In this document: positions 1,704 to 17,791 of the stretch, piece by piece
How the letters are laid out: each line of letters opens with the position of its first letter
How positions within the stretch are numbered: position 1 is the stretch's first letter
IMG/VR virus record: IMGVR_UViG_3300040808_001337
Coordinates: 1 to 20,630 of that record
DNA from: a virus
DNA: 20,630 bases
Reading direction: 5' to 3' (one strand)
The notes under the pieces: model-generated
Database searches by the model: none
The model's input: the letters and a program-made list of their open reading frames with translations, nothing else
What the model was told of the DNA's origin: nothing
Made by a program: the position numbers and the translations under genes

Positions 1704-1711
1704 TATTTATT
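1704..1711 (-). promoter_or_regulatory. Late-promoter-like box AATAAATA, 5 bases before the 916-1698 gene
   Basis: The minus strand reads AATAAATA, then CTTAT, then ATG. T4 late promoters have TATAAATA as a single -10-type element, and related marine phages are reported to use NATAAATA. If the box spans -13 to -6 as in T4, the transcript would begin at the A of the start codon. The same box and spacing precede the gene that starts at 19897. On the other strand TATAAGTA (1698-1705) overlaps it and lies 13 bases before the plus-strand ATG at 1719, so the tiny divergent gap could serve both directions. This is motif-based inference only. Confidence 0.4.
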
Positions 1712-1718
1712 GAAAAAC

Positions 1719-2090
1719 ATGGATTATACAGAACTAAAAATAAAGTTTCCTTTTTTATCGTGTGTTAAACACGTAAATGATGAATTTGTTGGCATATTGC
1801 TCAATCAAGATCAATTTGTTACGTCAATCTATGTTTATGATGATATTTCTTCAATAAAATTAAAACAAAAATTCTTATCACTTGGCGAAGAATGGTGGTG
1901 GGAATCTAATCGAACCATACCAATTAATATATTTTTTAATAGAGATTTTGAAATATTTAAAAAATACATCAAAAGTTTTACTACAAAAGATGTGGAAATT
2001 GTGTTTGGTCCTGCTACAAGCCTAAACAATGTGCAAAAAAAACGTATAATTAGAAGAAATATTTCGCTAGTTAAAAAAACAAATAGTTAA
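1719..2090 (+). CDS. Conserved hypothetical T4-like phage protein, the only plus-strand gene
   Basis: A 123-residue protein with no signal peptide or membrane segment. It has a striking GEEWWWESNRTIPINIFF stretch (about residues 55-72), then FGPATSL and a basic C-terminus (KKRIIRRNISLVKK). From memory, proteins with the same WWWESN and KR-rich tail occur in marine T4-like myoviruses as conserved hypotheticals. The basic tail could bind nucleic acid, but that is a guess. ATG 1719 is preferred over the in-frame TTG at 1710; neither has a strong Shine-Dalgarno. The gene diverges from 916-1698 across a gap of about 20 bases and converges on the gene ending at 2093, with only two bases between the stops. 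It is therefore isolated from every operon in the window and must have its own promoter. Confidence 0.8.
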   Translation: MDYTELKIKFPFLSCVKHVNDEFVGILLNQDQFVTSIYVYDDISSIKLKQKFLSLGEEWWWESNRTIPINIFFNRDFEIFKKYIKSFTTKDVEIVFGPATSLNNVQKKRIIRRNISLVKKTNS

Positions 2091-2092
2091 AA

Positions 2093-2674
2093 TTACTTTT
2101 GTAATTGTTCACAAATTAAATTCATTTGTACCACAATAGCATGAGCATACGCAATAGCATGTGCCTTTTTAAAATAGTATGAACCGTCTGTGGGTTTTGT
2201 CCATACTTCTTGCATGATTTTATTCCAGTCACAATCAAGAAGATATCTTTTTGACGGTCTTATTATTGCCAGAACTGCCGCTAATTGTTCTACTGTTGTG
2301 GGTTTTAATTTTTGTAATATTTGGCTGTGTTCGCCTACGTGAAACAAGTTTTCTACGAATTCTTTGTGACCAAGTAGATCCCATAATGGTTCCTTATTTA
2401 ACAAACTGTCTAGATGCTTCTCATCTTTGATATCTTTGTACAATGAAACATTTAAAATATCAAACTTAATATATCCTCTTTCTTCAGCACTTTCATAATC
2501 TATTGTTGCTAAACCTGTAAGTGGATTTGTAGGAATATCAGTAAAATAAACACCAGTATTGTGTTTTTTAAACTCATTATTATTACAAATACTTGCCACA
2601 TTGTATTTGAATAAACTTAAAAGTTTATCTCTGTCGCCCGTATCTATATCAATATCAGTCTGTACTTTTATCAT
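2093..2674 (-). CDS. Miniature DNA polymerase III alpha-like protein
   Basis: This 193-residue protein carries, in the right order, short versions of the C-family polymerase active-site blocks. TDIDIDTGDRDKLL (residues 6-19) resembles the DnaE PDxDxDF motif with two catalytic aspartates. HNTGVYF (38-44) resembles the HxGGVV segment. GYIKFDILN (67-75) resembles GLVKFDFLGL with the third aspartate. LFHVGEHSQILQKLKPTTVEQLAA...IRP (110-140) resembles the fingers block GVFQLES...LxP...RPGP. YYFKKAHAIAYAHAIVV (166-182) resembles FNKSHAAAYA. PHP, most of the palm and thumb, and the beta-binding, OB and tau-binding parts are absent. ATG 2674 is preferred over a TTG at 2695. It is the last gene of the recombination operon and overlaps its upstream neighbour by 20 bases. 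It may be an accessory or regulatory polymerase relative; activity is unproven. Confidence 0.7.
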   Translation of the reverse strand: MIKVQTDIDIDTGDRDKLLSLFKYNVASICNNNEFKKHNTGVYFTDIPTNPLTGLATIDYESAEERGYIKFDILNVSLYKDIKDEKHLDSLLNKEPLWDLLGHKEFVENLFHVGEHSQILQKLKPTTVEQLAAVLAIIRPSKRYLLDCDWNKIMQEVWTKPTDGSYYFKKAHAIAYAHAIVVQMNLICEQLQK

Positions 2675-2927
2675 TGTTTCTTCTATATTCTTCAAATTGA
2701 TTTTTTAATGCACCCAAATACATTTCAAGTTGTTTAACTCTAGTATCTAAATTATTATAATTGTCTATGATACTTTGTATATTTTCTAAATTTTTTGTAA
2801 ACAGTTCTTTTTCAGTCAACTGTGACAAAACTTTTAATTGTAACCATTGTTTCTTTAAAGATTTATTTTCAGTTTCAGATAATGTTAAACCCATAACTAC
2901 ATCTTCTAAAAAATCATCTGTTTTCAT
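2655..2927 (-). CDS. Small coiled-coil hypothetical protein
   Basis: A 90-residue, charged, probably all-helical protein. Residues about 15-85 show heptad-like spacing of Leu, Ile and Val (LSETENKSLKKQWLQLKVL, then VKQLEMYLGALKNQFEEY), consistent with a dimeric coiled coil. It has no cysteines, signal peptide or catalytic motif. Its ATG overlaps the stop of the zinc-finger-like gene upstream (ATGA), and its 3' end overlaps the polymerase III-like gene, so it is translationally coupled on both sides. I do not recognise a family. A small adaptor or scaffold for the neighbouring proteins is possible but only suggested by position. Confidence 0.75.
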   Translation of the reverse strand: MKTDDFLEDVVMGLTLSETENKSLKKQWLQLKVLSQLTEKELFTKNLENIQSIIDNYNNLDTRVKQLEMYLGALKNQFEEYRRNNDKSTD

Positions 2928-3601
2928 ATGTTTGCCTTTTTTACAATTTCATGCACAAAATTTACATCATCTTGACTTTTCTTAAACCTACTTGCCCAGG
3001 CTGATGGATCAATATAATCTTCAATCATTAATGTTTCTTGTTGATTCAATGACTGTAAAAAACTTATTCCAGATTTGCTATTGTACAACAACCACGGTGA
3101 TATCTGCCCTGACCTAATCATATGTATACATCTTGATTTAGAAACCTTTTCAAAAAAAACATTCCATGGCATACTGTTAGATTCTCCCCAACCTTTCATT
3201 GATAACACAGTTCTTTCAACTGCTCGTTCTACAGATTCTCTCACAGCAAACTCTTTAATATATTGCTCATACACAACATCACTTGGCCACCTATCTACTT
3301 TAACTCTATTTTTAAGTAACCATTCAATGTAATCTTCTACAGATGCTACATACACATCAACTAGATAATTAGCAAACTTTACAAATGCTGTATAATATTT
3401 GCTAGCCATAAAATCATCGTATGTTCTTTCAGTTTTCATAGCAGTTGATGTAATTCTCCAAAAATGTTGATAACAACGAAATGCTAATTGCACATTTCTG
3501 TCTTTACGATTATTCCATCGTCTTTTTGGTTCACAAAGATGAGTGATTAATGTTTTTTCAGAACTAAATGATTTTTTACAAAATTTACATTCAAATGACA
3601 T
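2924..3601 (-). CDS. Conserved phage protein with N-terminal CCHC zinc-finger-like motif
   Basis: A 225-residue protein. The N-terminus has C5-x2-C8-x12-H21-x-C23, with the aromatic and hydrophobic spacing of a classical C2H2 finger (FECKFCKKSFSSEKTLITH), but the last ligand pair is H-x-C instead of H-x(3-5)-H. A basic patch (KRRWNNRKDR, about 26-35) follows directly and suggests nucleic-acid contact. The rest (about 40-225) is helical and Trp/Tyr-rich without a motif I can name. I recall related proteins with the same finger in marine T4-like phages, annotated as hypothetical. ATG 3601 has GGTG 5 bases upstream. It sits between the gp62-like gene and two small genes in the replication operon, so a replication or transcription accessory role is plausible. 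Confidence 0.75.
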   Translation of the reverse strand: MSFECKFCKKSFSSEKTLITHLCEPKRRWNNRKDRNVQLAFRCYQHFWRITSTAMKTERTYDDFMASKYYTAFVKFANYLVDVYVASVEDYIEWLLKNRVKVDRWPSDVVYEQYIKEFAVRESVERAVERTVLSMKGWGESNSMPWNVFFEKVSKSRCIHMIRSGQISPWLLYNSKSGISFLQSLNQQETLMIEDYIDPSAWASRFKKSQDDVNFVHEIVKKANI

Positions 3602-3603
3602 AC

Positions 3604-4071
3604 TTACACCAATTGTTTAATTTCATTGTCTGTTAACCCAACATCTTTGGCTAATTTTTTAATTTCCTTTTTTGATAATATTTTTTTTAATAATTCTTTT
3701 TCATCAGATTTATAATTAGGATACACTGTATCCAAAAATTCCATCAGTTTAGTTTTTTTGCCTTTTCCTTTAGGTGCTTTGATCCATGGATGAAACATTT
3801 TTTTTCCAACACCGCACAGTGCCAACAGTTTCCAAAACAGTTTGCTGTCATTTTCATGTTTTTGAATCAATGAAAAATCCTTGTTACAAAATTCATTTAC
3901 ATTTTGTATATACTCTTCTTGTAAACTGCTAATACCTTTAACACTTGATGCAAAACGCATAGCAACATATGGCGAAAAAGACTTTTTTTCTTCATCTGAT
4001 AATTTGTCATACCATTGCATATTGCCTATGTCAATATTGTATAGCATTGTGTTAAGATTAACTTTTGACAT
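3604..4071 (-). CDS. Putative sliding-clamp loader small subunit (gp62-like)
   Basis: A 155-residue helical, lysine-rich cytoplasmic protein. SDEEKKSFSPYVAMRFASSV (about 25-44) and FWKLLALCGVGKKMFHPWIKAP (about 79-100) match, from memory, a family found in T4-like and other phages that is often labelled clamp loader subunit A. T4 gp62 itself is slightly longer (187 residues) and very divergent, so this is a family guess, not a direct match. If right, it would pair with a gp44 ATPase to load the gp45 clamp; neither partner is in this window. The start overlaps the upstream stop (TAATG), showing translational coupling. The alternative is simply a conserved hypothetical of the replication operon. 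Confidence 0.6.
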   Translation of the reverse strand: MSKVNLNTMLYNIDIGNMQWYDKLSDEEKKSFSPYVAMRFASSVKGISSLQEEYIQNVNEFCNKDFSLIQKHENDSKLFWKLLALCGVGKKMFHPWIKAPKGKGKKTKLMEFLDTVYPNYKSDEKELLKKILSKKEIKKLAKDVGLTDNEIKQLV

Positions 4072-4571: not shown

Positions 4572-6019
4572 ATATTCACCTTATTAATAGTATACGGATA
4601 ATTTGCTTCTTTGTAAAACTTTTTTCTTGCCGTTAAATGTCTTTTTGAAAACTTGCAATTTGAAGTTATATCCCATATTTGTACATGATCCTTGTCTTTG
4701 GCTTTTCTAATACCTCTTCCAATACTTTGTATTACTCTAACAAAACTTTTTCCAGGTTCTAGTAAAACCAAATTAAATATTCTTGGTATATTGATACCTA
4801 CTGCCGCAATTCCGTAAGTTGCAATTAAAACTTTGTGTTGCTCAGTAGCAATTTCGCTATACTCTTCTTCTCTGTCTTCTGTTTTTGTTTTTCCTTGGAC
4901 AAAGACCGATCCAGGAATTAATTCTTGTAGTAATTCTCCTGATTTGATTCTGTCAATCAAAATCAAAGTGTTTCCACCATCACGTATTTCTTCAATCAAG
5001 TTACTTAAAAATTTTAATCTTTCTAAATTTGTTGTCAAATATGCAAGTTCTTCTTGATAAGTTCTAAATGAATTAGCATCTTGTGTTTGTATAACATTCA
5101 CATGACAGTTTGCAAGTACACCTTTGCTTTGTAATTCACTTGCTGATAATTGGCTTATAACTGTACCTAGTGAACAAATCAAACTCATTTTTTCATAATC
5201 TTCTTTTGGCACTGTACCTGTTAATCCCCATCTAATTGGAATGTGTGCAAAAGGTCCAGTTAATAAAGATTTTAATACATCAGCCTTTGCCATGTGTACT
5301 TCGTCAACTATAATACAATTAACATCTTTTATGAATTCTTCAATAGGAAATTCTGCTTCATCTTTTTTTGTATTTTTATTTAAAATATTTAAACTTTGCC
5401 ATGTGCAAATTGTGTGTTTGTGTCCTAGTTCTTTTCTTTCACCAAAATAAACACCAACATCTAATCCTATATTTTTATAATCTTCTTCTGTTTGTGTAAC
5501 AAGTGATTTGTTTGGTACTACTACAATTGATCTACCATAATTTTCACAAATTTTTGAAAGTGCCGCAGTGATAATTGTTTTACCAGCACCAGTGGCTATT
5601 TCTTGTAAACTTTGTGGATTACTGATAAAATCATTAATAACTTTAACTTGATAATCTCTTAATATAATTGGCTGTCCTTCATGTGTATGACCTTTAGGCC
5701 AATTGATGTGTGAAAAAAAACTGTCAGTAACTTCTTCAAATGAAAAATCAAAACTTTGTCTATGATCTTGTATCTGTATTTCATATCCATTGTTTTCAAT
5801 AATTGGCAAAATTTGATCTAGCAAATTCAAATATGTTCTTCCGCCAATGTCACAAAAACGTATGTTACCATCCCATCTGCCTAACTTGTAAGCAGGCAAG
5901 TGAAATGCATATGGCACAAAAAATTTAAGTTTGTCAGAAATTTTACGTCTTGTTGAAACGTCAAGACCTTCAAACTTTACATTAACTTCATCTTTGATTA
6001 TTAATGTTGCTTTAGCCAT
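4568..6019 (-). CDS. uvsW: UvsW-type DNA/RNA-DNA helicase (superfamily 2)
   Basis: A 483-residue protein, close to the T4 UvsW length. In T4, UvsW unwinds R-loops and branched DNA, moves replication forks and helps switch from origin- to recombination-dependent replication. SF2 motifs are in order: Walker A ATGAGKT (142-148), motif Ia VVVPNKSLVTQ (167-177), DEVH box (239-242), motif III GLTGT (265-269), a C-terminal RecA-like lobe with ILIDR (353-357), and motif VI QSIGRGIRKA (431-440). The N-terminal about 110 residues match the UvsW double-stranded-DNA-binding region (VPYAFHLPAYKLGRWDG). The start overlaps the upstream muralytic gene by 19 bases. Assignment is firm on motifs, length and synteny with uvsX and uvsY. 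Confidence 0.95.
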   Translation of the reverse strand: MAKATLIIKDEVNVKFEGLDVSTRRKISDKLKFFVPYAFHLPAYKLGRWDGNIRFCDIGGRTYLNLLDQILPIIENNGYEIQIQDHRQSFDFSFEEVTDSFFSHINWPKGHTHEGQPIILRDYQVKVINDFISNPQSLQEIATGAGKTIITAALSKICENYGRSIVVVPNKSLVTQTEEDYKNIGLDVGVYFGERKELGHKHTICTWQSLNILNKNTKKDEAEFPIEEFIKDVNCIIVDEVHMAKADVLKSLLTGPFAHIPIRWGLTGTVPKEDYEKMSLICSLGTVISQLSASELQSKGVLANCHVNVIQTQDANSFRTYQEELAYLTTNLERLKFLSNLIEEIRDGGNTLILIDRIKSGELLQELIPGSVFVQGKTKTEDREEEYSEIATEQHKVLIATYGIAAVGINIPRIFNLVLLEPGKSFVRVIQSIGRGIRKAKDKDHVQIWDITSNCKFSKRHLTARKKFYKEANYPYTINKVNI

Positions 6020-6627
6020 GGATTCTCTTCTCTTAACTGCTTTATAGAATTTTGTAGTCTTATTGTATACTCTTTGCCTAATTCACTGTATAAACTTAAA
6101 AATTGCACTAAAAATAACGAATCTACAGTGTTGTTAGCAACCATTTGATCTCTAACTTTACGAAATCCGTCATATGCATCATGATGATTAATTAAATGAT
6201 AATAGTAATCAACAGATCCGCATTTGTCTTTGAACTTGATAATTCCCCATGGTGTATTTTTTACACCTTTTGGTTTTATTTGATCTAAGTTTTTATTCCA
6301 TGTTCTTATTCCAAATAGATTATTTGCTTCTTTAGAAAACCTTGAATTACCCCAAGCAGACTCATGTATTGCCTGTGCTATCACAATTTCAATTGGTATA
6401 TAATGTTTTTCTTCTTTTGCTAAAACATTTTTATCTACACAATACACTATAAAATCAATAAACTCTTTTTTGTTTTTTACGTTTCCAAATTGGATTTTTG
6501 GAATTTTTTCTACTTTGTGTATTTCATTTTCTTTTACTATTTTTGCTGGTACTTCATTTTTATTGATACTTTCAGTAAACAATAAAATTACAAAAACAAC
6601 TAAAACTAGTAACAAAAACTTTTTCAT
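6001..6627 (-). CDS. Bax/glucosaminidase-like peptidoglycan hydrolase with N-terminal membrane segment
   Basis: A 208-residue protein. Residues 4-18 form a strongly hydrophobic helix after MKK, which is a signal peptide or signal anchor; no lipobox cysteine is present. Residues about 52-205 carry a lysozyme-like fold of the Bax / endo-beta-N-acetylglucosaminidase group: VIAQAIHESAWGNSRFS with a likely catalytic Glu89, then NNLFGIRTW and YYYHLINHHDAYDGFRK. Such enzymes cut the glycan strand of murein in the periplasm. It could be a signal-anchor endolysin or a wall-remodelling enzyme. It has a good Shine-Dalgarno (AAGGA, 5 bases before ATG) and sits inside a recombination operon, an odd place for a lysis gene; no holin or spanin is seen nearby. 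Confidence 0.8.
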   Translation of the reverse strand: MKKFLLLVLVVFVILLFTESINKNEVPAKIVKENEIHKVEKIPKIQFGNVKNKKEFIDFIVYCVDKNVLAKEEKHYIPIEIVIAQAIHESAWGNSRFSKEANNLFGIRTWNKNLDQIKPKGVKNTPWGIIKFKDKCGSVDYYYHLINHHDAYDGFRKVRDQMVANNTVDSLFLVQFLSLYSELGKEYTIRLQNSIKQLREENPWLKQH

Positions 6628-10558: not shown

Positions 10559-11146
10559 TTATTTTTCACCAATAACACATGCTACTAAATGATATCTGTT
10601 TTCTTTGCTGGCATTAAGAGCTGTGTGATTTGATGTTGTAAATGTTTTCCACCAAGTGTTTTTAGGAAGATGTTTTACTTCGTTATTGATTATCATCATA
10701 CATCCTTCTTGTGTTTTAATTGGATAGTGAATACGATATGTGTCATCACAATGCCATGTCAAACACTGTTTTGGTCTTAAATTCATTATTCTGACTCTAC
10801 CAACAACAAAATGTTTAGTTAATTCATTATAAACTTTTTCAAAATGTGTTCCTTTATACACACTACAAAGTTCTGTAAAGTCTTCTTCTTTTAAAGGATT
10901 TTCTCTAGGAGGTACAACAAGTTCCCCGTTAACTTCTTTTGACTTATCCCAATCGTAATATAAACTACCTCTACCTAATAAAAAATTATCTGGATCATCT
11001 TTAGTTGAGTTCAAACATATTTGGTAACTGCTGTTGTTGTTTTTATCTCGCCATTGTAGTTTACCAGCATCTAACATGCTTGTAAGTTCAGAATATAAAT
11101 CATATTCTGGCAAAAATTCAATTCTTTCAAAGTTATTTGAATTCAT
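10559..11146 (-). CDS. 2-oxoglutarate/Fe(II) oxygenase, aspartyl/asparaginyl hydroxylase-like
   Basis: A 195-residue protein. The C-terminal half shows the double-stranded beta-helix iron site: H132-x-D134 in TWHCDDTYRIHYPI, distal H174 in TSNHTALN, and R184 in NRYHLVACV, which would bind 2-oxoglutarate. Order and spacing fit the aspartyl/asparaginyl beta-hydroxylase group of cupin-fold oxygenases, which hydroxylate peptides or small molecules using O2, 2-oxoglutarate and Fe(II). The N-terminal about 110 residues are not recognisable. The start overlaps the upstream SDR stop (TAATG). It is one of four oxygenases in the operon, with the PLP enzyme directly downstream. The substrate is unknown. 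Confidence 0.75.
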   Translation of the reverse strand: MNSNNFERIEFLPEYDLYSELTSMLDAGKLQWRDKNNNSSYQICLNSTKDDPDNFLLGRGSLYYDWDKSKEVNGELVVPPRENPLKEEDFTELCSVYKGTHFEKVYNELTKHFVVGRVRIMNLRPKQCLTWHCDDTYRIHYPIKTQEGCMMIINNEVKHLPKNTWWKTFTTSNHTALNASKENRYHLVACVIGEK

Positions 11147-11646
11147 TATACTATTGACATTTCCTTAACTTTAAACGGTTGATTTATAATCCAGTCAACT
11201 GTTTGTACTACATATTTAACGTCAATGCGTTCTTTGTCATTATTTTTTTCTGTGCCTGTGTCAACATAACTTACATTTAATATCGATGTGTCAATGCCTT
11301 GCCAAAACAACTGAGCATTCATACTGTCAAGTGCTTGTTTTTCTACAGCATATTTGTAATTTTTTTTATAATCAGTTACCCAATATTTTGACATTGAGCC
11401 TATGTTTATTATTTTACCTTTAAATTTTTTTGATAGTTCATATAATAAATCAGTTTGATAAAACCCTTGTTGTGCATTATTAATAAAAACATCACAATGC
11501 TTTGCATCATTTATTATTTTTTGTATATCTTTTGATATATCATATCCATTAGATCTTGAAAATCCTACTGCATTAGGCAAATAATAATCATAAAGAGCTT
11601 TACCAATACCTAATGTGTGTCCTGTAATTGCATACTTTTTAGTCAT
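11146..11646 (-). CDS. Short-chain dehydrogenase/reductase, compact
   Basis: A 166-residue NAD(P)-dependent oxidoreductase of the SDR type, expected to reduce a carbonyl or oxidise an alcohol, or act as an epimerase. It shows the dinucleotide motif TGHTLGIG (8-15), FINNAQQG with the NNA motif (56-58), a serine in IGSMS (82-86) and Y99-x3-K103 in KYAVEKQAL, so the Ser-Tyr-Lys triad is intact. Classical SDRs are about 250 residues; this one lacks loops and part of the substrate cap, though the fold core is complete. It is coupled by TAATG overlaps to the GNAT-like gene upstream and the oxygenase downstream. Confidence 0.85.
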   Translation of the reverse strand: MTKKYAITGHTLGIGKALYDYYLPNAVGFSRSNGYDISKDIQKIINDAKHCDVFINNAQQGFYQTDLLYELSKKFKGKIINIGSMSKYWVTDYKKNYKYAVEKQALDSMNAQLFWQGIDTSILNVSYVDTGTEKNNDKERIDVKYVVQTVDWIINQPFKVKEMSIV

Positions 11647-12269
11647 TATAATATTTTACCTTTGTTCAACACTTCTGCTGTGTCAAATTTTTGCCCATTA
11701 TGATTATAGTAAACTACATTTTTTTTTGGTTGCCATTTGTAATCAGAGTCTTGTAAATTAATACTGTAAAAATACTGCAAGTAATCTGATTTAGGCGAAA
11801 CTTTAAACAAACAGTCTGGTTCTAATTTTAGATTTGTGTACCATTCAGTTTGTGTCCATTTTTTAAAAGCAGGATCAATCATTTGTTTTTTGCGTTGATA
11901 CAGTGCGTTGATGGCTCTGTTTTTAACATCTACTGTGATGTACAGTATTTTATATCTGTGTTCTCTTGCCCAGGAAATTTGATGATCAGCAACCATAAGT
12001 CCACAGTGTGTATGACGCCATGGCTTCAATATGTGATAACGGCAAACCCTAGCCGCTACGTCTTGATCACCTGTGTAGTGTGATGGTTCTACTGCTGATA
12101 TAGATATCAATTCGTCACCGGCAAACACCATCCAAGTTACTATGTTAGGATTGTCTGGATCATACTTGTCATAAGCAAGACTTTGATTGCCTTCTTTAAA
12201 AGTTTCTTCTCTAAACTTTTCTATTTGCTCTTTATAACTGTTGTCGTATACTTTTACTTCAAGTTCCAT
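11646..12269 (-). CDS. GNAT-like N-acetyltransferase
   Basis: A 207-residue protein from ATG 12269. The region about 52-128 looks like the GNAT core: strands ELISISAV and VCRYHILKPWRHTHCGLMV with a basic acetyl-CoA-binding turn (KPWRHTHCG), a helix DHQISWAREHRYK, a strand ILYITVDVKN, and an NRAINALYQRKKQM helix like the motif B N-x-x-A-x-x-LY. It would transfer an acetyl or other acyl group from CoA to an amine. The C-terminal about 65 residues are Tyr/Trp-rich and unassigned. ATG 12269 is preferred to a TTG at 12281; a GGA lies about 7 bases upstream. It overlaps its upstream neighbour by 16 bases. The substrate is unknown. Confidence 0.65.
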   Translation of the reverse strand: MELEVKVYDNSYKEQIEKFREETFKEGNQSLAYDKYDPDNPNIVTWMVFAGDELISISAVEPSHYTGDQDVAARVCRYHILKPWRHTHCGLMVADHQISWAREHRYKILYITVDVKNRAINALYQRKKQMIDPAFKKWTQTEWYTNLKLEPDCLFKVSPKSDYLQYFYSINLQDSDYKWQPKKNVVYYNHNGQKFDTAEVLNKGKIL

Positions 12270-12853
12270 TTGTTTTTCCAATCAGTGTATATCTTTTGCC
12301 ATTTTGAACTTGTTGTGTTATCGTAAGACAAGTATCGTTGTATGATTTCTGCATCTTGTTTATAAAATTCTTCATTACCTGGCACAACATTTTCCCAACC
12401 ATTGTTAAAACATTTTGAGTATACAACATTAGCACCAAGTTTCACAAGTATTTCTTTTGTTGCAGGAAAATGTCTGTTACCGCCTTCTTTTGACGCAGGA
12501 GTAAATGTCAACAACACAGTTGTTTTTCTACTAAACGGATACTGTGTACCCAAATTAGCATTCATATATCCTTTAACCACTAACCAATCTAAAAAGTTTT
12601 TAAATGCCGCACCCATTTGTGCTGTCATTTCTGGTACAGCAAACACAAACTGATCGTACTCATATAACTTTGTGATAAGTCTATCTACTTCCTGTGGCAC
12701 AACACCATCAGAAGCATTTGAATTTATCACTGGTATGTCATAGTTTGCCAAACTGTCTACATCAAATACACAGTGTTTGCTCAACAATTGTAGGCCTTTG
12801 TAGTTCATGCTGTCTGGTGATGCACTTCCACTCAATGCTATTGTTTTTATCAT
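12254..12853 (-). CDS. NADPH-dependent FMN reductase-like flavoprotein
   Basis: A 199-residue protein with the flavodoxin-like fold of the NADPH-dependent FMN reductase family. It shows an N-terminal phosphate loop IALSGSASPDSMNYKG (5-20), a strand and helix FVFAVPEMTAQMGAAFKNFLDWL (69-91) equivalent to the family's PEYN-x(3)-G-x-LKNAIDW motif, and GGNRHFPATKEIL (about 123-136) in the flavin-facing loop. The usual PEYN Tyr is replaced by Met. It could supply reduced flavin or electrons to the oxygenases and desaturases in the same operon, or reduce iron or quinones; that link is inferred from position. Its start is nested in the upstream methyltransferase stop (ATGA). Confidence 0.8.
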   Translation of the reverse strand: MIKTIALSGSASPDSMNYKGLQLLSKHCVFDVDSLANYDIPVINSNASDGVVPQEVDRLITKLYEYDQFVFAVPEMTAQMGAAFKNFLDWLVVKGYMNANLGTQYPFSRKTTVLLTFTPASKEGGNRHFPATKEILVKLGANVVYSKCFNNGWENVVPGNEEFYKQDAEIIQRYLSYDNTTSSKWQKIYTDWKNKWNLK

Positions 12854-13488
12854 ATCTCTATATCCACTATCAATCTTTTACCAGAAAATATTTCACAATC
12901 TAACAAATATTCAGTGTAATTTTTGTATTTGTTTTTGTACAAATGCATATCTTCTGTTATTGTTTTTAACACCAATCGTTTGTCCCAATGGCGCTGTTCA
13001 TGATATGGTTCTTGTATAATAGCATATTTTGTTTTGTAGAATTTAACAAGTTCATCAAACAAATTTAAATGATTATCTTTTACATATAATAATACACCAC
13101 TGAATATCACATGATCCACTGAGAAATCAACAGTAATATTGTTTTTATTATTCCAACTTGTATTTCTGTATTCTATATTAGAATTATTTTTCCAAATGTT
13201 TTGTGCAAGTTTTATAGGTTCTTCTGATGTATCAAATCCCATATACTTATAATCAGTATAGCCTTTATCATGCAATATTTTATTAACAGGGCCATGCCGA
13301 CTACCAACATCTATAATACCTTTAGATTGTTTTTCTATTATAATATCTGCTTGTTTTTCAAAAATAGGGAGAGCTTGTGGTGTATCCAAATACCACATGT
13401 CATCAAAGGTATAATTTTCTATTAGCGGAACTACAATCTCTGTTTCAGTTTGCTCATGTATTGTGGGCCAAGGCACTTTGTGGTTCAT
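12850..13488 (-). CDS. Class I SAM-dependent methyltransferase
   Basis: A 212-residue protein. Motif I GIIDVGSRHGPVNKIL (57-72) and the acidic post-I motif MGFDTSEEPIKLA (83-95, Asp86 for the ribose) mark a Rossmann-like SAM-binding core; HVIFSGVLLYVKD (126-138) matches motif IV/post-IV of small-molecule methyltransferases. The GSRHG version of GxGxG is slightly unusual. No DNA-methyltransferase NPPY/DPPY motif is present, so a small molecule, lipid or sugar target is more likely. ATG 13488 is chosen over ATG 13506 because GAGGA lies 5 bases upstream, while 13506 has no Shine-Dalgarno. It overlaps the TauD-like gene by 35 bases and the next gene by ATGA. Confidence 0.8.
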   Translation of the reverse strand: MNHKVPWPTIHEQTETEIVVPLIENYTFDDMWYLDTPQALPIFEKQADIIIEKQSKGIIDVGSRHGPVNKILHDKGYTDYKYMGFDTSEEPIKLAQNIWKNNSNIEYRNTSWNNKNNITVDFSVDHVIFSGVLLYVKDNHLNLFDELVKFYKTKYAIIQEPYHEQRHWDKRLVLKTITEDMHLYKNKYKNYTEYLLDCEIFSGKRLIVDIEI

Positions 13489-14302
13489 GGTTTTCCTCGT
13501 AAACATTTTTAAAGTCAGATGCTAGTCTCCACAACAATCTGCTGTTATCAAGCACAGGAGTTCTACGATGTAAACTGGTAAACTGATCCATTAACAGCAA
13601 ATCACCTTTTTTGAAAATATGATGATATTGATATTTTGATCTAAAAATAATTGGTTTTAGTCTTTCAATCATTTTTTCGTGATCAATTAGTGTTTTGCCT
13701 TCCCATGCTTTTACAATAAAGTGATATGGAAAATAAAAATAGTAGTCGCCTGTGTGAGGATGTCTATCAACCAAACTTCTAATACTGCCTTTGTTTTTAC
13801 TCATAAACTCAAGTTCAGGATCATCATCTTCTAAATTATAGATAGTGTTATTTTGAAACTTTAATCTTATTTTAATACTTTTCCAGTATTCTTGTTCATC
13901 TTGTGATAAATCGTAAAACGGCTTAGATGTATGACACACACTTAGAGTTGTGTTAATATCTTCTTGAATGCAATATAAACTAATTAAAATTTTATCAATT
14001 AAATGTCTTGAATTACCGTTTGAGTGCCAACCTAATTCAGTATCGCCAAACATACCAATCTTTTTGCCATCTACTTTTTTACCAGTTACTAAAAATATTT
14101 CAGGATAATCTTTTGGATTCATAAACAATCCTGGTGCTTCACAATCACCAAATCTTTTTTGCATTCTAACTATTTGTTCTTCAGTAAACTGTTGATCATA
14201 AAATACTGCACAACCTTCACTATGTATTTGTTGTGATATTTGTTTTAGCCTTTCATCTGATACTTCAAGTATGTTTTCTATGCTTCTAAATGGATTTATC
14301 AT
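13454..14302 (-). CDS. TauD/TfdA-like 2-oxoglutarate dioxygenase with HxN iron motif
   Basis: A 282-residue protein of TauD/clavaminate-synthase-like size. The N-terminus (IHSEGCAVFYDQQFTEEQIVRMQKRFGDCE) is typical of this family. The distal end carries LLMDQFTSLHRRTPVLDNSRLLWRL with the second iron-binding histidine (H245) and arginines at +10 and +14 for 2-oxoglutarate, as in TauD. The first iron motif lies in TELGWHSNGNSRH as H93-x-N95, where TauD has H-x-D and clavaminate synthase H-x-E. Asparagine is a poor ligand, so the enzyme may be a variant, use another carboxylate, or have altered chemistry. Its start is nested in the upstream oxygenase stop (ATGA). Confidence 0.8.
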   Translation of the reverse strand: MINPFRSIENILEVSDERLKQISQQIHSEGCAVFYDQQFTEEQIVRMQKRFGDCEAPGLFMNPKDYPEIFLVTGKKVDGKKIGMFGDTELGWHSNGNSRHLIDKILISLYCIQEDINTTLSVCHTSKPFYDLSQDEQEYWKSIKIRLKFQNNTIYNLEDDDPELEFMSKNKGSIRSLVDRHPHTGDYYFYFPYHFIVKAWEGKTLIDHEKMIERLKPIIFRSKYQYHHIFKKGDLLLMDQFTSLHRRTPVLDNSRLLWRLASDFKNVYEENHEPQSALAHNT

Positions 14303-14955
14303 AATATATTTTCTACCTTCTTTTTAAATGTTTGAAAATCTACATCAGCAGGAATATTATTCCATCTTGTGACCCAAGCACACCTTGGTGCTTCTGTTAC
14401 AATTACCCTGTGCATTGTATTTGTGTCTAACAGTATGGGCTTATCAACAATAATGTGTCCAATCTTTCTATCACTTAAAAATTTTTCAAATTCAGGTGTG
14501 CCTTGCCCCATTTCTTTTTGTGCTTTAAATTCGTGATAGTATGCATAACCGTGAGCATTTTTTTCAGGCAGATATACTTCTTCAGGTTTAGTTTCAAAAT
14601 AATCAATTCTTGATCCACCATGTACAGGAATAACCAAATTGTAATGATTAGGATGTTCTGTGTCTAGATCTATATCAGTGTGTGCAAATACATCTTTTTT
14701 AGTGCTGTCTGCTGTGTTAAATCCAGTTGACCTAAATTGATAATATGGATGTACTTTTCTATGTTCAACAAGTATTGGATCAAAAGTTTGTTCATACCCA
14801 GTTGGTATACCTGTTCTGTTATCTTCAAGTGAATAACTTCTAAACGGTGTTTTACCAAATGTGTTTGAATGTGTTACTTTAACTTTTTCATACAAAGACC
14901 TCAGTAATTGTAGGTCAGGATTTATGTCAATATATTCAACTATATCTTTTATCAT
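14299..14955 (-). CDS. Putative 2-oxoglutarate/Fe(II) oxygenase
   Basis: A 218-residue protein with an apparent cupin-type iron site: VFAHTDIDLD gives H92-x-D94; LLDTNTMHRVIV gives distal H182; and R191 or R197 in EAPRCAWVTRW could bind 2-oxoglutarate. Strand NLVIPVHGGSRIDYFE (106-121) between them fits the beta-helix. There is no signal peptide. It would hydroxylate or desaturate an unknown substrate with O2 and 2-oxoglutarate. AAAGG precedes the ATG, and the stop overlaps the TauD-like start. The family is more remote than its neighbours' and rests on motif order, so a non-catalytic cupin remains possible. Confidence 0.65.
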   Translation of the reverse strand: MIKDIVEYIDINPDLQLLRSLYEKVKVTHSNTFGKTPFRSYSLEDNRTGIPTGYEQTFDPILVEHRKVHPYYQFRSTGFNTADSTKKDVFAHTDIDLDTEHPNHYNLVIPVHGGSRIDYFETKPEEVYLPEKNAHGYAYYHEFKAQKEMGQGTPEFEKFLSDRKIGHIIVDKPILLDTNTMHRVIVTEAPRCAWVTRWNNIPADVDFQTFKKKVENIL

Positions 14956-14966
14956 TTTTAATACCT

Positions 14967-15698
14967 TTACACTGTTGCAAGTGTTTGTATGTCTTCTTGT
15001 GTTGGCAAAGAAAACATCAATGCAATTCTGTCTTCTGTTCCTTCATGCACAACTGAATGTTTTAAACCAACATTTAAAAAATATGCTGATCCATTTGCTG
15101 GCATTTCATAAGTTTCTTCAACACCTCTACGCCATACTTTGTTATAAACCTTGTCTGTTCCTTGTATTGGTACAATGACTCTGACTGCATACTCTGGTCC
15201 ATAGTCAATGTGTGGTGTTAAAAACTTACCACAACGTATTCTTGAAAGTCTAACTCTAATTGGTGTTGCGTTAAACTGTCCTTCAATAGCTTCTTTTAAA
15301 TATGAATTTTTATAAATTGGCAAAGGATGATGCCAATTGTGTTCATTCATTGGTGCTGGAAGACCTTCCAACCTACGAGTTTTTGTTCTATATTTTTCTG
15401 TTTTTGATTTTCCTAGTGACTCGCTGTTTGCTGTAATTTTACATTCATTTCTTAATTCTGTTAAATCTAAAACATCATTCAATGACTCTTGATAATAAGT
15501 CAAATTAATCTGATCAAAGTGGTGATAATTGTCTGAAGCAAGTTCTTCATGCACTGCACAAAGTCCTCTATTTGCTTGATATACGTTTACCCACTCTTTA
15601 TTTAAACGTACAACTTCTTCTCTAAGTTTTTCAATATCAAACTTAATTCCTGGAATTGGTGCTACACTTGGCAATTGGTATTTTGTTCTAGTTTCCAT
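14967..15698 (-). CDS. Aspartyl/asparaginyl beta-hydroxylase-family oxygenase
   Basis: A 243-residue protein. The C-terminal cupin domain (about 145-232) contains RLSRIRCGKFLTPHIDYG with H163-x-D165, VRVIVPIQG (172-180), SAYFLNVGLKHSVVHEG with distal H214, and DRIALMFSLP with R224, the layout of the Asp/Asn beta-hydroxylase family. The N-terminal about 140 residues include PLPIYKNSYLKEAIEG and may form a substrate lid. It probably hydroxylates a peptide or a small molecule using O2 and 2-oxoglutarate. It has a strong Shine-Dalgarno (GAGGA) and is separated from the desaturase upstream by 26 bases. It is the most convincing of the four oxygenases by motif. Confidence 0.85.
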   Translation of the reverse strand: METRTKYQLPSVAPIPGIKFDIEKLREEVVRLNKEWVNVYQANRGLCAVHEELASDNYHHFDQINLTYYQESLNDVLDLTELRNECKITANSESLGKSKTEKYRTKTRRLEGLPAPMNEHNWHHPLPIYKNSYLKEAIEGQFNATPIRVRLSRIRCGKFLTPHIDYGPEYAVRVIVPIQGTDKVYNKVWRRGVEETYEMPANGSAYFLNVGLKHSVVHEGTEDRIALMFSLPTQEDIQTLATV

Positions 15699-15724
15699 TT
15701 TTATTTCCTCAGTACTATTATATA

Positions 15725-16471
15725 TTATACATTTACTGGTTCAGTTTTGCAATCTTTTTTTGCTAAAAGAGGCACAACATATTTTCCACCAATATCCCAT
15801 GGTCCTAAAATTACTCTACTTACATCATCATGATGATTATCATGATATCCTTCACCCCACATGATCATGTTGCTTAAAAAATCAATTGTAGTTGGCTTGG
15901 CTTCTTTGCCACCGTGGCCAAAATAATTCAAATATGTCAAAAAGAACCATGCATGAGTAAAATTAAATGCCATCCACACAACCAACCATGGATTAATCAA
16001 TGCATGAAGCACTACTGATCCATAATATAACTTCCAATAGTGTTTAGTTGTAAACACAGCATCTTTTTTACGTAAAAATCTTCTCATTGGTATTGTGCCT
16101 TGTGGTGTTTGATATCTACCCATCAGCATCTTCCACCAACCCAAATGTTTAGGCGAGTGTGTGTCTAGTTCTGAATCTGTGTATTTGTGATGATTTAAAT
16201 GTGCAACCACATTGTGACCAGGAGGTCCTACAGCACTTATTACTGTTGATGCTAATAATATTTTTCTACCTATCCAACTTGGTTCAAACTGATCATGGCA
16301 CAACCATCTGTGATATGCAATCTGTGCCAAGTTGTTTGTGATATGACCAACCAACGTAAAAATCAATGCAAGTTCCCATGACCCACCCATAACAAAGTAA
16401 GCAGGAATACCCACAACTGCGATGACAAACATCACTACAATTTTTAATGTTACCCAATCAATATACTTCAT
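15725..16471 (-). CDS. Membrane fatty-acid desaturase, second copy
   Basis: A 248-residue integral membrane diiron enzyme of the acyl-CoA/acyl-lipid desaturase family. The three histidine boxes are complete: HRWLCH (54-59), HLNHH (91-95) and HDNHH (210-214). Hydrophobic stretches at about 9-28, 33-50, 70-85 and 150-182 fit membrane spans. It would introduce a double bond in a fatty acyl chain using O2 and electrons from ferredoxin or a similar donor. It is a diverged paralogue of the gene immediately upstream, only 4 bases away, with the same box spacing. Distinct chain positions or heterodimer-like cooperation are possible but untestable here. Confidence 0.9.
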   Translation of the reverse strand: MKYIDWVTLKIVVMFVIAVVGIPAYFVMGGSWELALIFTLVGHITNNLAQIAYHRWLCHDQFEPSWIGRKILLASTVISAVGPPGHNVVAHLNHHKYTDSELDTHSPKHLGWWKMLMGRYQTPQGTIPMRRFLRKKDAVFTTKHYWKLYYGSVVLHALINPWLVVWMAFNFTHAWFFLTYLNYFGHGGKEAKPTTIDFLSNMIMWGEGYHDNHHDDVSRVILGPWDIGGKYVVPLLAKKDCKTEPVNV

Positions 16472-16475
16472 GTGT

Positions 16476-17261
16476 TTACTCTTTGATGTATCCTTTGTTT
16501 ATGTGTGTTTTCAAAGGTTGTTTAACTTCTAATAATTTAATAAACCAACCACCTACATCAAACTCCCACCATTTGTGTTTGAAACTTGGATTTTGTGGAT
16601 CAGCATGATGATTGTTGTGCCAGCCTTCTCCCCACATCAATATGCCAAGCAAAGGTATGTTGGTTGAATTGTCATTTGTTTCGTAATTTCTGTAACCAAA
16701 CATGTGTGTTAGTGTGTTGATAAACGATCCTGCATTCCATAATATCATTGCTGGAAACAAGTATGCCGCTACCAATAGCATAGGATCAATCAATAACCAT
16801 ACACTTGCTATCACACCATGAATTAAAAAATACCATCTGTGAATAAATGAATGAAAACGATCTTTGATCAAGTGCATGGCATATCGTGGACTTGGTGTTT
16901 CAAACATACTCAACCATTGCACTTTAAAAAATCCTTGATGCTCTGGCGAGTGTGGATCTCGTTCTTGATCAGTAAAGTGATGATGTTCTCTATGAACAGC
17001 AACCCAACCAATTGTGGAACCAGTTAACCCGTAAGCACCTGCCAATGATCCAAAGTACTCATACCATTTAGGTGCGTTCCAACTCTTGTGTGATAGTAGT
17101 CGATGGAATGTCATTGTCATTCCAAAACAACCAGTTATAAAATATACAAAAAATCCTATCAACCAGTGGTACCAACTGCCGTACATGATCATAGGGATAA
17201 TGCTCAAGTGTGCTATGATTTGGCTAAAAAATAATGTCCATTTAAAATAATTTTGTTTCAT
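16476..17261 (-). CDS. Membrane fatty-acid desaturase, first copy (delta-9-like)
   Basis: A 261-residue membrane diiron desaturase. The histidine boxes are HRLLSH (53-58), HREHH (90-94) and HNNHH (215-219), with a fourth metal-associated HSPEH region at 104-108 as in stearoyl-CoA/acyl-lipid delta-9 desaturases. Hydrophobic spans lie at about 8-25, 31-52, 70-88 and 142-180. It would lower the melting point of host membrane lipids or desaturate a special acyl chain during infection. The ATG has no clear Shine-Dalgarno, and a promoter-like TATAAT ends 7 bases before it. It heads the run of eleven densely packed genes. Confidence 0.92.
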   Translation of the reverse strand: MKQNYFKWTLFFSQIIAHLSIIPMIMYGSWYHWLIGFFVYFITGCFGMTMTFHRLLSHKSWNAPKWYEYFGSLAGAYGLTGSTIGWVAVHREHHHFTDQERDPHSPEHQGFFKVQWLSMFETPSPRYAMHLIKDRFHSFIHRWYFLIHGVIASVWLLIDPMLLVAAYLFPAMILWNAGSFINTLTHMFGYRNYETNDNSTNIPLLGILMWGEGWHNNHHADPQNPSFKHKWWEFDVGGWFIKLLEVKQPLKTHINKGYIKE

Positions 17262-17268
17262 AATTTTT

Positions 17269-17296
17269 ATTATACATTCTTTTTAAAAGTTTACAA
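17269..17296 (-). promoter_or_regulatory. Possible promoter directly before the first desaturase
   Basis: The minus strand shows TTGTAA (17291-17296), a 16-base spacer and a perfect TATAAT (17269-17274). The expected start would lie at or next to the ATG at 17261, giving almost no leader. In such AT-rich DNA a chance TATAAT is common, so this is tentative. Confidence 0.35.
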
Positions 17297-17310
17297 GTTA
17301 ATTATAATGA

Positions 17311-17318
17311 TATTTATT
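17311..17318 (-). promoter_or_regulatory. Late-promoter-like box AATAAATA upstream of the desaturases
   Basis: AATAAATA lies 49 bases before the first desaturase ATG, in the 98-base gap after the peroxiredoxin gene. It matches the NATAAATA late-promoter form. It could let the metabolic island be read again late in infection, independently of the peroxiredoxin promoter. Confidence 0.4.
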
Positions 17319-17359
17319 ACAGTTTGTAGAGCTGATATAAACTACTATTTTAATAATGT

Positions 17360-17791
17360 TTATGAAAGTTCTTCTAAAACACCTTCAATAAAAGGATCTT
17401 TAAAATCTTTGGTAATTTCGCCATTTTCAACTAAAACTGCGAATCTATTACATCTGATACCAAATGTTTCTCCCCAGTCAACTTCTTTTTTTAGTTTTTT
17501 TGAAAATACTGCTAAAGGATCAGACACGCTGTCTATATCTGGATGTCCATGTGTTTTATTCCATTCGTCCATAACAAATGCATCATTAACTGCCATAAAA
17601 ACTACTTTTTCAATTCCTTTGTTTTTAAGTGTTTCAAGATTTTTTACAAACCCTGGAATATGTCTTTTTGTACAACCAGGAGTAAATGCACCCGGAACAC
17701 CAACTAAAATTGCTTTTGAGTGTGTTAGTTTATAAGGAACTATATCTTTTCCTTCTAATATAAAAAGACCTTGAGTATCTAATGTTGTCAT
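17360..17791 (-). CDS. Prx5-type peroxiredoxin
   Basis: A 143-residue thioredoxin-fold peroxidase that reduces H2O2 and organic or lipid hydroperoxides. PGAFTPGCTKRHIPGFV (33-49) holds peroxidatic Cys40 with the flanking Thr and the Pro shell of the Prx5 subfamily; ETFGIRCNRFAVLVENGEI (108-126) holds the conserved active-site Arg region. Cys114 sits where most Prx5 proteins have Ser or another residue, and no C-terminal resolving Cys is present, so it may be 1-Cys or use Cys114. It is about 15-20 residues shorter than plant and bacterial Prx5. It has AAGGA 6 bases before the ATG and a near-consensus promoter. It may guard against peroxides produced around the O2-using enzymes downstream or by the infected host. 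Confidence 0.92.
   Translation of the reverse strand: MTTLDTQGLFILEGKDIVPYKLTHSKAILVGVPGAFTPGCTKRHIPGFVKNLETLKNKGIEKVVFMAVNDAFVMDEWNKTHGHPDIDSVSDPLAVFSKKLKKEVDWGETFGIRCNRFAVLVENGEITKDFKDPFIEGVLEELS

Follow-up and report, generated by a model that had tools for sequence, protein, structure and literature searches.

Why a T4-type phage should carry, beside its recombination genes, a 193-residue protein with the catalytic motifs of a bacterial replicase is the question raised by the locus described here. The window, as we call the whole stretch of 20,630 nucleotides analysed (positions 1 to 20,630 of IMG/VR virus record IMGVR_UViG_3300040808_001337), has on its minus strand an open reading frame that runs from an ATG at 2674 to a stop codon ending at 2093, with an alternative in-frame TTG start at 2695 that would add seven residues. 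Its product, which we call subunit B, contains the motifs TDIDID (residues 6–11), HNTGV (38–42), KFDILN (70–75), LFHV...LKP...IRP (110–140) and FKKAHAIAYA (168–177). A reading made from the sequence alone had listed these motifs in DnaE order, and every one is present; bacterial DnaE (E. coli, T. aquaticus and M. tuberculosis) has the order PDxDxD, HxxGV, KFD, RP and FNKSHA in common with B, and the window protein has threonine at the start of the first motif where most of its relatives have proline. That reading also put the missing part of DnaE at about 80%, which is correct for the B gene taken by itself (193 of roughly 1,160 residues), and it offered a minimal polymerase, a terminal transferase and an inhibitor that mimics the host replicase as explanations.

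The resemblance between B and DnaE is beyond chance. In PHROG profile matching B hits PHROG 11778, annotated 'DNA polymerase', at 1e-69, and its residues 53–141 match the full-length DnaE family PHROG 405 at 1e-8; a profile of 44 B homologues compared with the PDB finds M. tuberculosis Pol III alpha at 7e-4, and the Pfam finger model alone stays below threshold on B (E 0.02, 14.6 bits against a cut-off of 22). An AlphaFold2 model with 44 window and locus sequences as input (pLDDT 88.8, pTM 0.69) has C-family polymerases at ranks 1–16 of a Foldseek comparison with the PDB and noise below, and a second aligner gives C-family chains Z scores of 5.7–9.2, compared with 3.6 for the next unrelated chain. 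The best structural matches are thus Pol III alpha and PolC, and together with the PHROG and PDB profile matches they bear out the proposal that a C-family (DnaE-type) palm and fingers protein, adjoining recombination genes, is encoded by a T4-type phage. The aligned range corresponds to residues 396–781 of E. coli DnaE and 967–1296 of G. kaustophilus PolC, with an rmsd of 6–7 Å over nearly the whole model, which means that the palm and fingers of the B model stand in another relative position than in the full enzymes. In this model predicted strands 8–12 and 71–75 have D7, D9, D11 and D72 within them or at their margins, and H172 lies at the start of the long last helix (residues 170–192).

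Residue equivalences were taken from a profile alignment of B to Pol III alpha, with the E. coli numbering from the literature; D7, D9 and D72 take the places of the catalytic aspartates (Table 1). The residue at the place of D11 is kept as aspartate by the DnaE groups and is an Asn in PolC (PMC3919608), so that the third aspartate of B is of the DnaE type. The histidine equivalent to H172 is the steric gate in E. coli, where it and the fingers motif select the dNTP opposite the template (PMC8485763). Across an alignment of 89 sequences (the window, 80 IMG/VR loci and eight named phages, some of the IMG/VR sequences being identical), D7, D9, D11, K70 and D72 never vary, and the same holds for H38, R139, P140, F168, K169 and H172. 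Most of the other aspartates of B vary freely. The DxD and KFD aspartates, on which the sequence-only reading leaned, are therefore fixed among the homologues, so that neither of the two findings which that reading named as fatal to it, a model unlike the polymerase palm or freely varying aspartates, was obtained. Within the lineage of the window itself, comparison of B with 96%-identical relatives (e.g. locus L008) gives a dN of ~0.017 and a dS of ~0.15; the gene is thus under purifying selection and is not decaying.

This pattern of conservation bears on the idea that B, with or without A (the product of a second gene described below), has no catalytic activity and serves as a decoy or inhibitor, imitating the host replicase and binding the proteins that work with it. 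Phages do make inhibitors that mimic host enzymes, and the partial resemblance of B to the host enzyme is what such a protein would share with them. However, the most conserved residues of B are those needed only for catalysis, the clamp- and tau-binding parts of DnaE are absent, B is nearly always paired with the second gene described below, and it occurs in phages of very different hosts; we consider a decoy very improbable. A catalytic role for B, as one part of a polymerase, raises the matter of what the protein lacks. Pfam gives no match to PHP or HhH in B, and clamp-binding, HhH and OB parts were not found in it by Pfam, alignment or structural matching, the protein ending 21 residues after H172. 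The distance from D9 to K70 is 61 residues, compared with 150 from D403 to K553 in E. coli, and the thumb between the DxD and KFD motifs appears to have been lost. In contrast to bacterial DnaE, then, PHP, thumb, HhH, OB and tau-binding parts are not found in this gene, the fingers are reduced, and the palm is spread over two genes. The triphosphate-binding GRGS loop (G363/S364) is absent from B in both the sequence and the structural alignment.

The other half of the palm was found in relatives of the window. A Pfam search with PF07733 of seven related phages detected in all seven a second gene of ~175 codons, A (PHROG 11127), which matches model positions of about 16–98, lies at least 30 kb from B, and in several of the seven stands beside the clamp-loader gene gp44. 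The C-terminus of A reads in translation ...GRGSSVASYxLFLIGxHxVxSxxYxLDxxEFLK, with GRGS invariant in the A alignments. An A profile matches residues 321–392 of E. coli DnaE, and in a structure model of A (pLDDT 92) residues 79–173 align to DnaE 279–393 with Z scores of 10–12.5 and an rmsd near 2.3 Å. A ends exactly at the FERFLN of DnaE and B begins just before PDIDIDF; since A covers DnaE residues 279–393 and B covers 396–781, the two halves fit end to end, with no overlap, along the palm and fingers of a single enzyme.

A and B also travel together. A tblastn search finds B in 63 phage records, mostly jumbo phages (RaK2, PBECO4/121Q, GAP32, CBB, PA5oct, Atu_ph07 and SCTP-2 types), and at least 264 IMG/VR stretches contain it. 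A RaK2-type query again returns 63 B-bearing phage records. Two 141-kb Alishewanella phages are now among them, and B is therefore not confined to jumbo genomes. At 1e-8, RaK2 queries detect A in 60 phage records and B in 63, the B records left without A being PP728206 (109 kb) and the two Alishewanella phages. The latter were rejected as cases of B without A when one of them gave a profile match to A at 8.5e-18; its sister phage is credited with A from its nearly identical length and B match. As judged from these searches, at least 62 of the 63 phage records with B also encode A, and the 109-kb record is the exception. Among IMG/VR contigs longer than 200 kb, all six with A also have B, and two of the three with B also have A; two different profiles found no A in the longest B contig without it (G008, the contig of locus L058; 265,680 bases), which may be incomplete or a true exception. 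None of 21 short contigs (6–66 kb), chosen to link A to B, holds both genes, which says little, being expected for distant genes, and A was not seen in the 20.6-kb window or in the contigs of its closest relatives, all of them 42 kb or shorter. The record of the window phage does not reach A, and we infer its possession of that gene.

That B alone is a minimal polymerase or nucleotidyltransferase is difficult to reconcile with this distribution. The 265-kb contig with B and no detectable A is what such a protein would predict, but B lacks the GRGS loop and one half of the palm, almost every relative encodes that half in A, and the end of A and the start of B meet in DnaE. The self-sufficient minimal polymerase of the sequence-only reading was therefore dropped once the partner was found in relatives, and we give independent activity of B almost no credence.

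Activity of B jointly with A would call for two separate chains, because most members have no room for a classical intein fragment. In the 80 IMG/VR A loci the reading frame stops 0–11 residues after EFLK/R, and B starts with MPDIDIDF in most IMG/VR members, the frame before PDIDIDF usually being closed within a few codons. Joining of A and B through an intein was thus rejected, with room for a classical intein fragment at neither end in most members. Cyanobacterial DnaE, a C-family polymerase likewise encoded in two genes, differs in this respect, as its halves are joined through intein protein splicing. A degenerate DNA pattern (WGxGRGS followed by DxDxDF) revealed no natural A–B fusion in viral contigs, a weak negative as the pattern had no positive control. 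We also note that the place of E. coli DnaE R390, in the EFL motif beside the break point, is taken in A by an invariant or nearly invariant Glu, a change of chemistry.

An unsplit relative in a sister contig was considered as a fused A–B and rejected, being a different, larger, PHP-less C-family protein of ~547 residues. Three marine contigs, G016 (L191/L177), G042 (L189) and G030 (L190), contain a B relative, followed roughly 5–11 kb downstream by a C-family polymerase that is unsplit and has no PHP match; two of these are complete open reading frames of ~550 codons, and one that was read through retains the catalytic motifs. The contigs of the window's nearest relatives showed no unsplit polymerase of this kind.

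The same break point is used elsewhere. Cbastvirus phages (Tenacibaculum phage Larrie and Cellulophaga phi13:1) have a Pol III alpha split at the same point of the palm, with PF07733 positions 3–98 and 100–260 on either side, but unlike A and B this enzyme is full size, with PHP, fingers and HhH, and is encoded by two adjacent genes (L185:3146-6726 in Larrie, L187:1607-5207 in phi13:1). A break point shared with the full-size enzyme of unrelated phages suggests that the palm loop can be cut with function kept. The first Cbastvirus gene has a tail of ~50 residues that looks by eye like part of a HINT or intein domain and has no such Pfam match.

Table 1. Positions of gene B, its motifs and its neighbours in the window.
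Feature	Position	Strand	Basis or occurrence
Convergent ORF, 126 aa, PHROG 11637	1710..2090	+	Ends no more than a few bases from the B 3' end in 48/51 loci
Subunit B, palm strands that bind metal plus reduced fingers; probable C-terminal half of a minimal Pol III alpha encoded in two pieces	2093..2674	-	PHROG 11778
FKKAHA motif, F168–A173; H172 = E. coli H760 (steric gate)	2156..2173	-	Alignment, PMC8485763, model
KFD motif; K70, D72 = E. coli K553, D555	2459..2467	-	Alignment and model, palm strand 71–75
TDIDI(D) motif, codons D7, D9, D11 (D11 at the low end) = E. coli D401, D403, D405	2642..2656	-	Alignment and model, first palm strand (8–12)
Upstream ORF, 90 aa, predicted coiled-coil-like, overlaps B start by 20 bases	2655..2927	-	
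225-aa protein, N-terminal C2H2 zinc finger, PHROG 11058	2924..3601	-	Upstream of B in 47/51 loci
155-aa protein, PHROG 11758	3604..4071	-	47/51 loci

The surroundings of B were compared in 51 loci (43 from IMG/VR and the eight phages). Similar-sized genes take the place of the 90-aa open reading frame in several relatives, the resemblance being one of size and position. The 155-aa protein is probably the clamp-loader small subunit, gp62-like, as it comes directly after gp44 in an Alishewanella phage, and the zinc-finger protein could possibly be a DNA-holding partner of a polymerase that has no thumb. Further out on the upstream side are uvsW and uvsY, on the other side lie primase and helicase, and B is linked to uvsX, uvsY and uvsW. 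A family-B polymerase of the gp43 type is encoded by all seven related phages and is not visible within the 20.6-kb fragment of the window; of five that were read, four show the catalytic DTDS motif. The presence of this polymerase and the composition of the neighbourhood fit an accessory polymerase and not the main replicase.

We consider it likely that a phage-specific minimal C-family polymerase is encoded in two genes, with B as its C-terminal half; B would be held to A non-covalently, and the enzyme would serve as an accessory beside gp43. B would bring the metal ligands (its three aspartates) together with the KFD lysine and reduced fingers with the steric-gate histidine, and A would bring the first part of the palm and the GRGS loop that holds the triphosphate. 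Association of the two as a non-covalent heterodimer would complete the palm and its Pol-beta-like active site, and the complex would then add nucleotides to a primer end, working alongside gp43 in synthesis or repair tied to recombination, or in primer extension. Contact between A and B is proposed from homology. The apparent loss of the thumb leaves the gripping of DNA unaccounted for and counts against this scheme, and it calls for caution, as A–B may need other proteins that hold the DNA, or its polymerase activity may not be templated at all. Also against the scheme stand the Glu of A at the place of R390, the 265-kb contig with B and no detected A, the failure to find a natural fusion, and the absence of A from the window and from its closest relatives' contigs. 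The complex might instead transfer nucleotides without a template or to some other acceptor, or tag DNA ends during recombination. Such an activity would suit the apparent deletion of the thumb, the strong reduction of the fingers, the lack of detectable clamp-binding, HhH and OB parts in B, and the linkage to uvsX, uvsY and uvsW, but the steric-gate histidine and the fingers motif are kept, and in E. coli these choose the dNTP opposite the template. Neither the terminal transferase nor the inhibitor of the sequence-only reading has positive evidence in its favour, and we regard a non-templated role for the A–B complex as unlikely.

From sequence analysis, Iyer et al. 2021 (PMC7824862) described in group 2.2 jumbo phages a minimal Pol III alpha divided between two distant genes, and single truncated Pol III alpha genes were noted in earlier papers; we found no experiment on the split enzyme in the open-access literature. 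The enzyme of Iyer et al. has the same two-protein layout, the same halves and the same family-B company as the relatives of the window, whose own gene falls in PHROG 11778. Unlike the published set, the window gene is metagenomic, belongs to a lineage not treated there, and would have its partner gene outside the 20.6-kb record. It is a metagenomic member of an already published split enzyme, to which we add the exact junction, the invariance across 89 sequences, the tiling of DnaE by the two structure models, the occurrence in 141-kb Alishewanella phages and the split site shared with Cbastvirus.

Should the halves assemble into a functioning enzyme, phages already equipped with a B-family replicase would also possess a C-family polymerase that lacks thumb, PHP and clamp-binding parts, and this enzyme would define the core that the bacterial replicase needs for catalysis. 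The published idea that the phage enzymes resemble an ancestor of Pol III alpha, as opposed to a reduced host enzyme, would also become testable. A bolder proposal, on which we are nearly evenly divided and lean slightly against, is that A and B constitute a thumb-less two-subunit C-family polymerase of ~365 residues that is active on recombination intermediates beside the family-B replicase, and would be the smallest known of its family.

Two other parts of the window attracted attention on inspection by eye. Between uvsW and uvsY, positions 6001-6627 of the minus strand encode what looks like a secreted glucosaminidase-like protein, and in RaK2 and PBECO4 this place is occupied by a gene whose annotation reads DNA polymerase exonuclease subunit. 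Positions 10559-17791, also on the minus strand, appear to form a metabolic run with several possible 2-oxoglutarate/iron oxygenase-like open reading frames, two proteins like fatty-acid desaturases and one like a peroxiredoxin.
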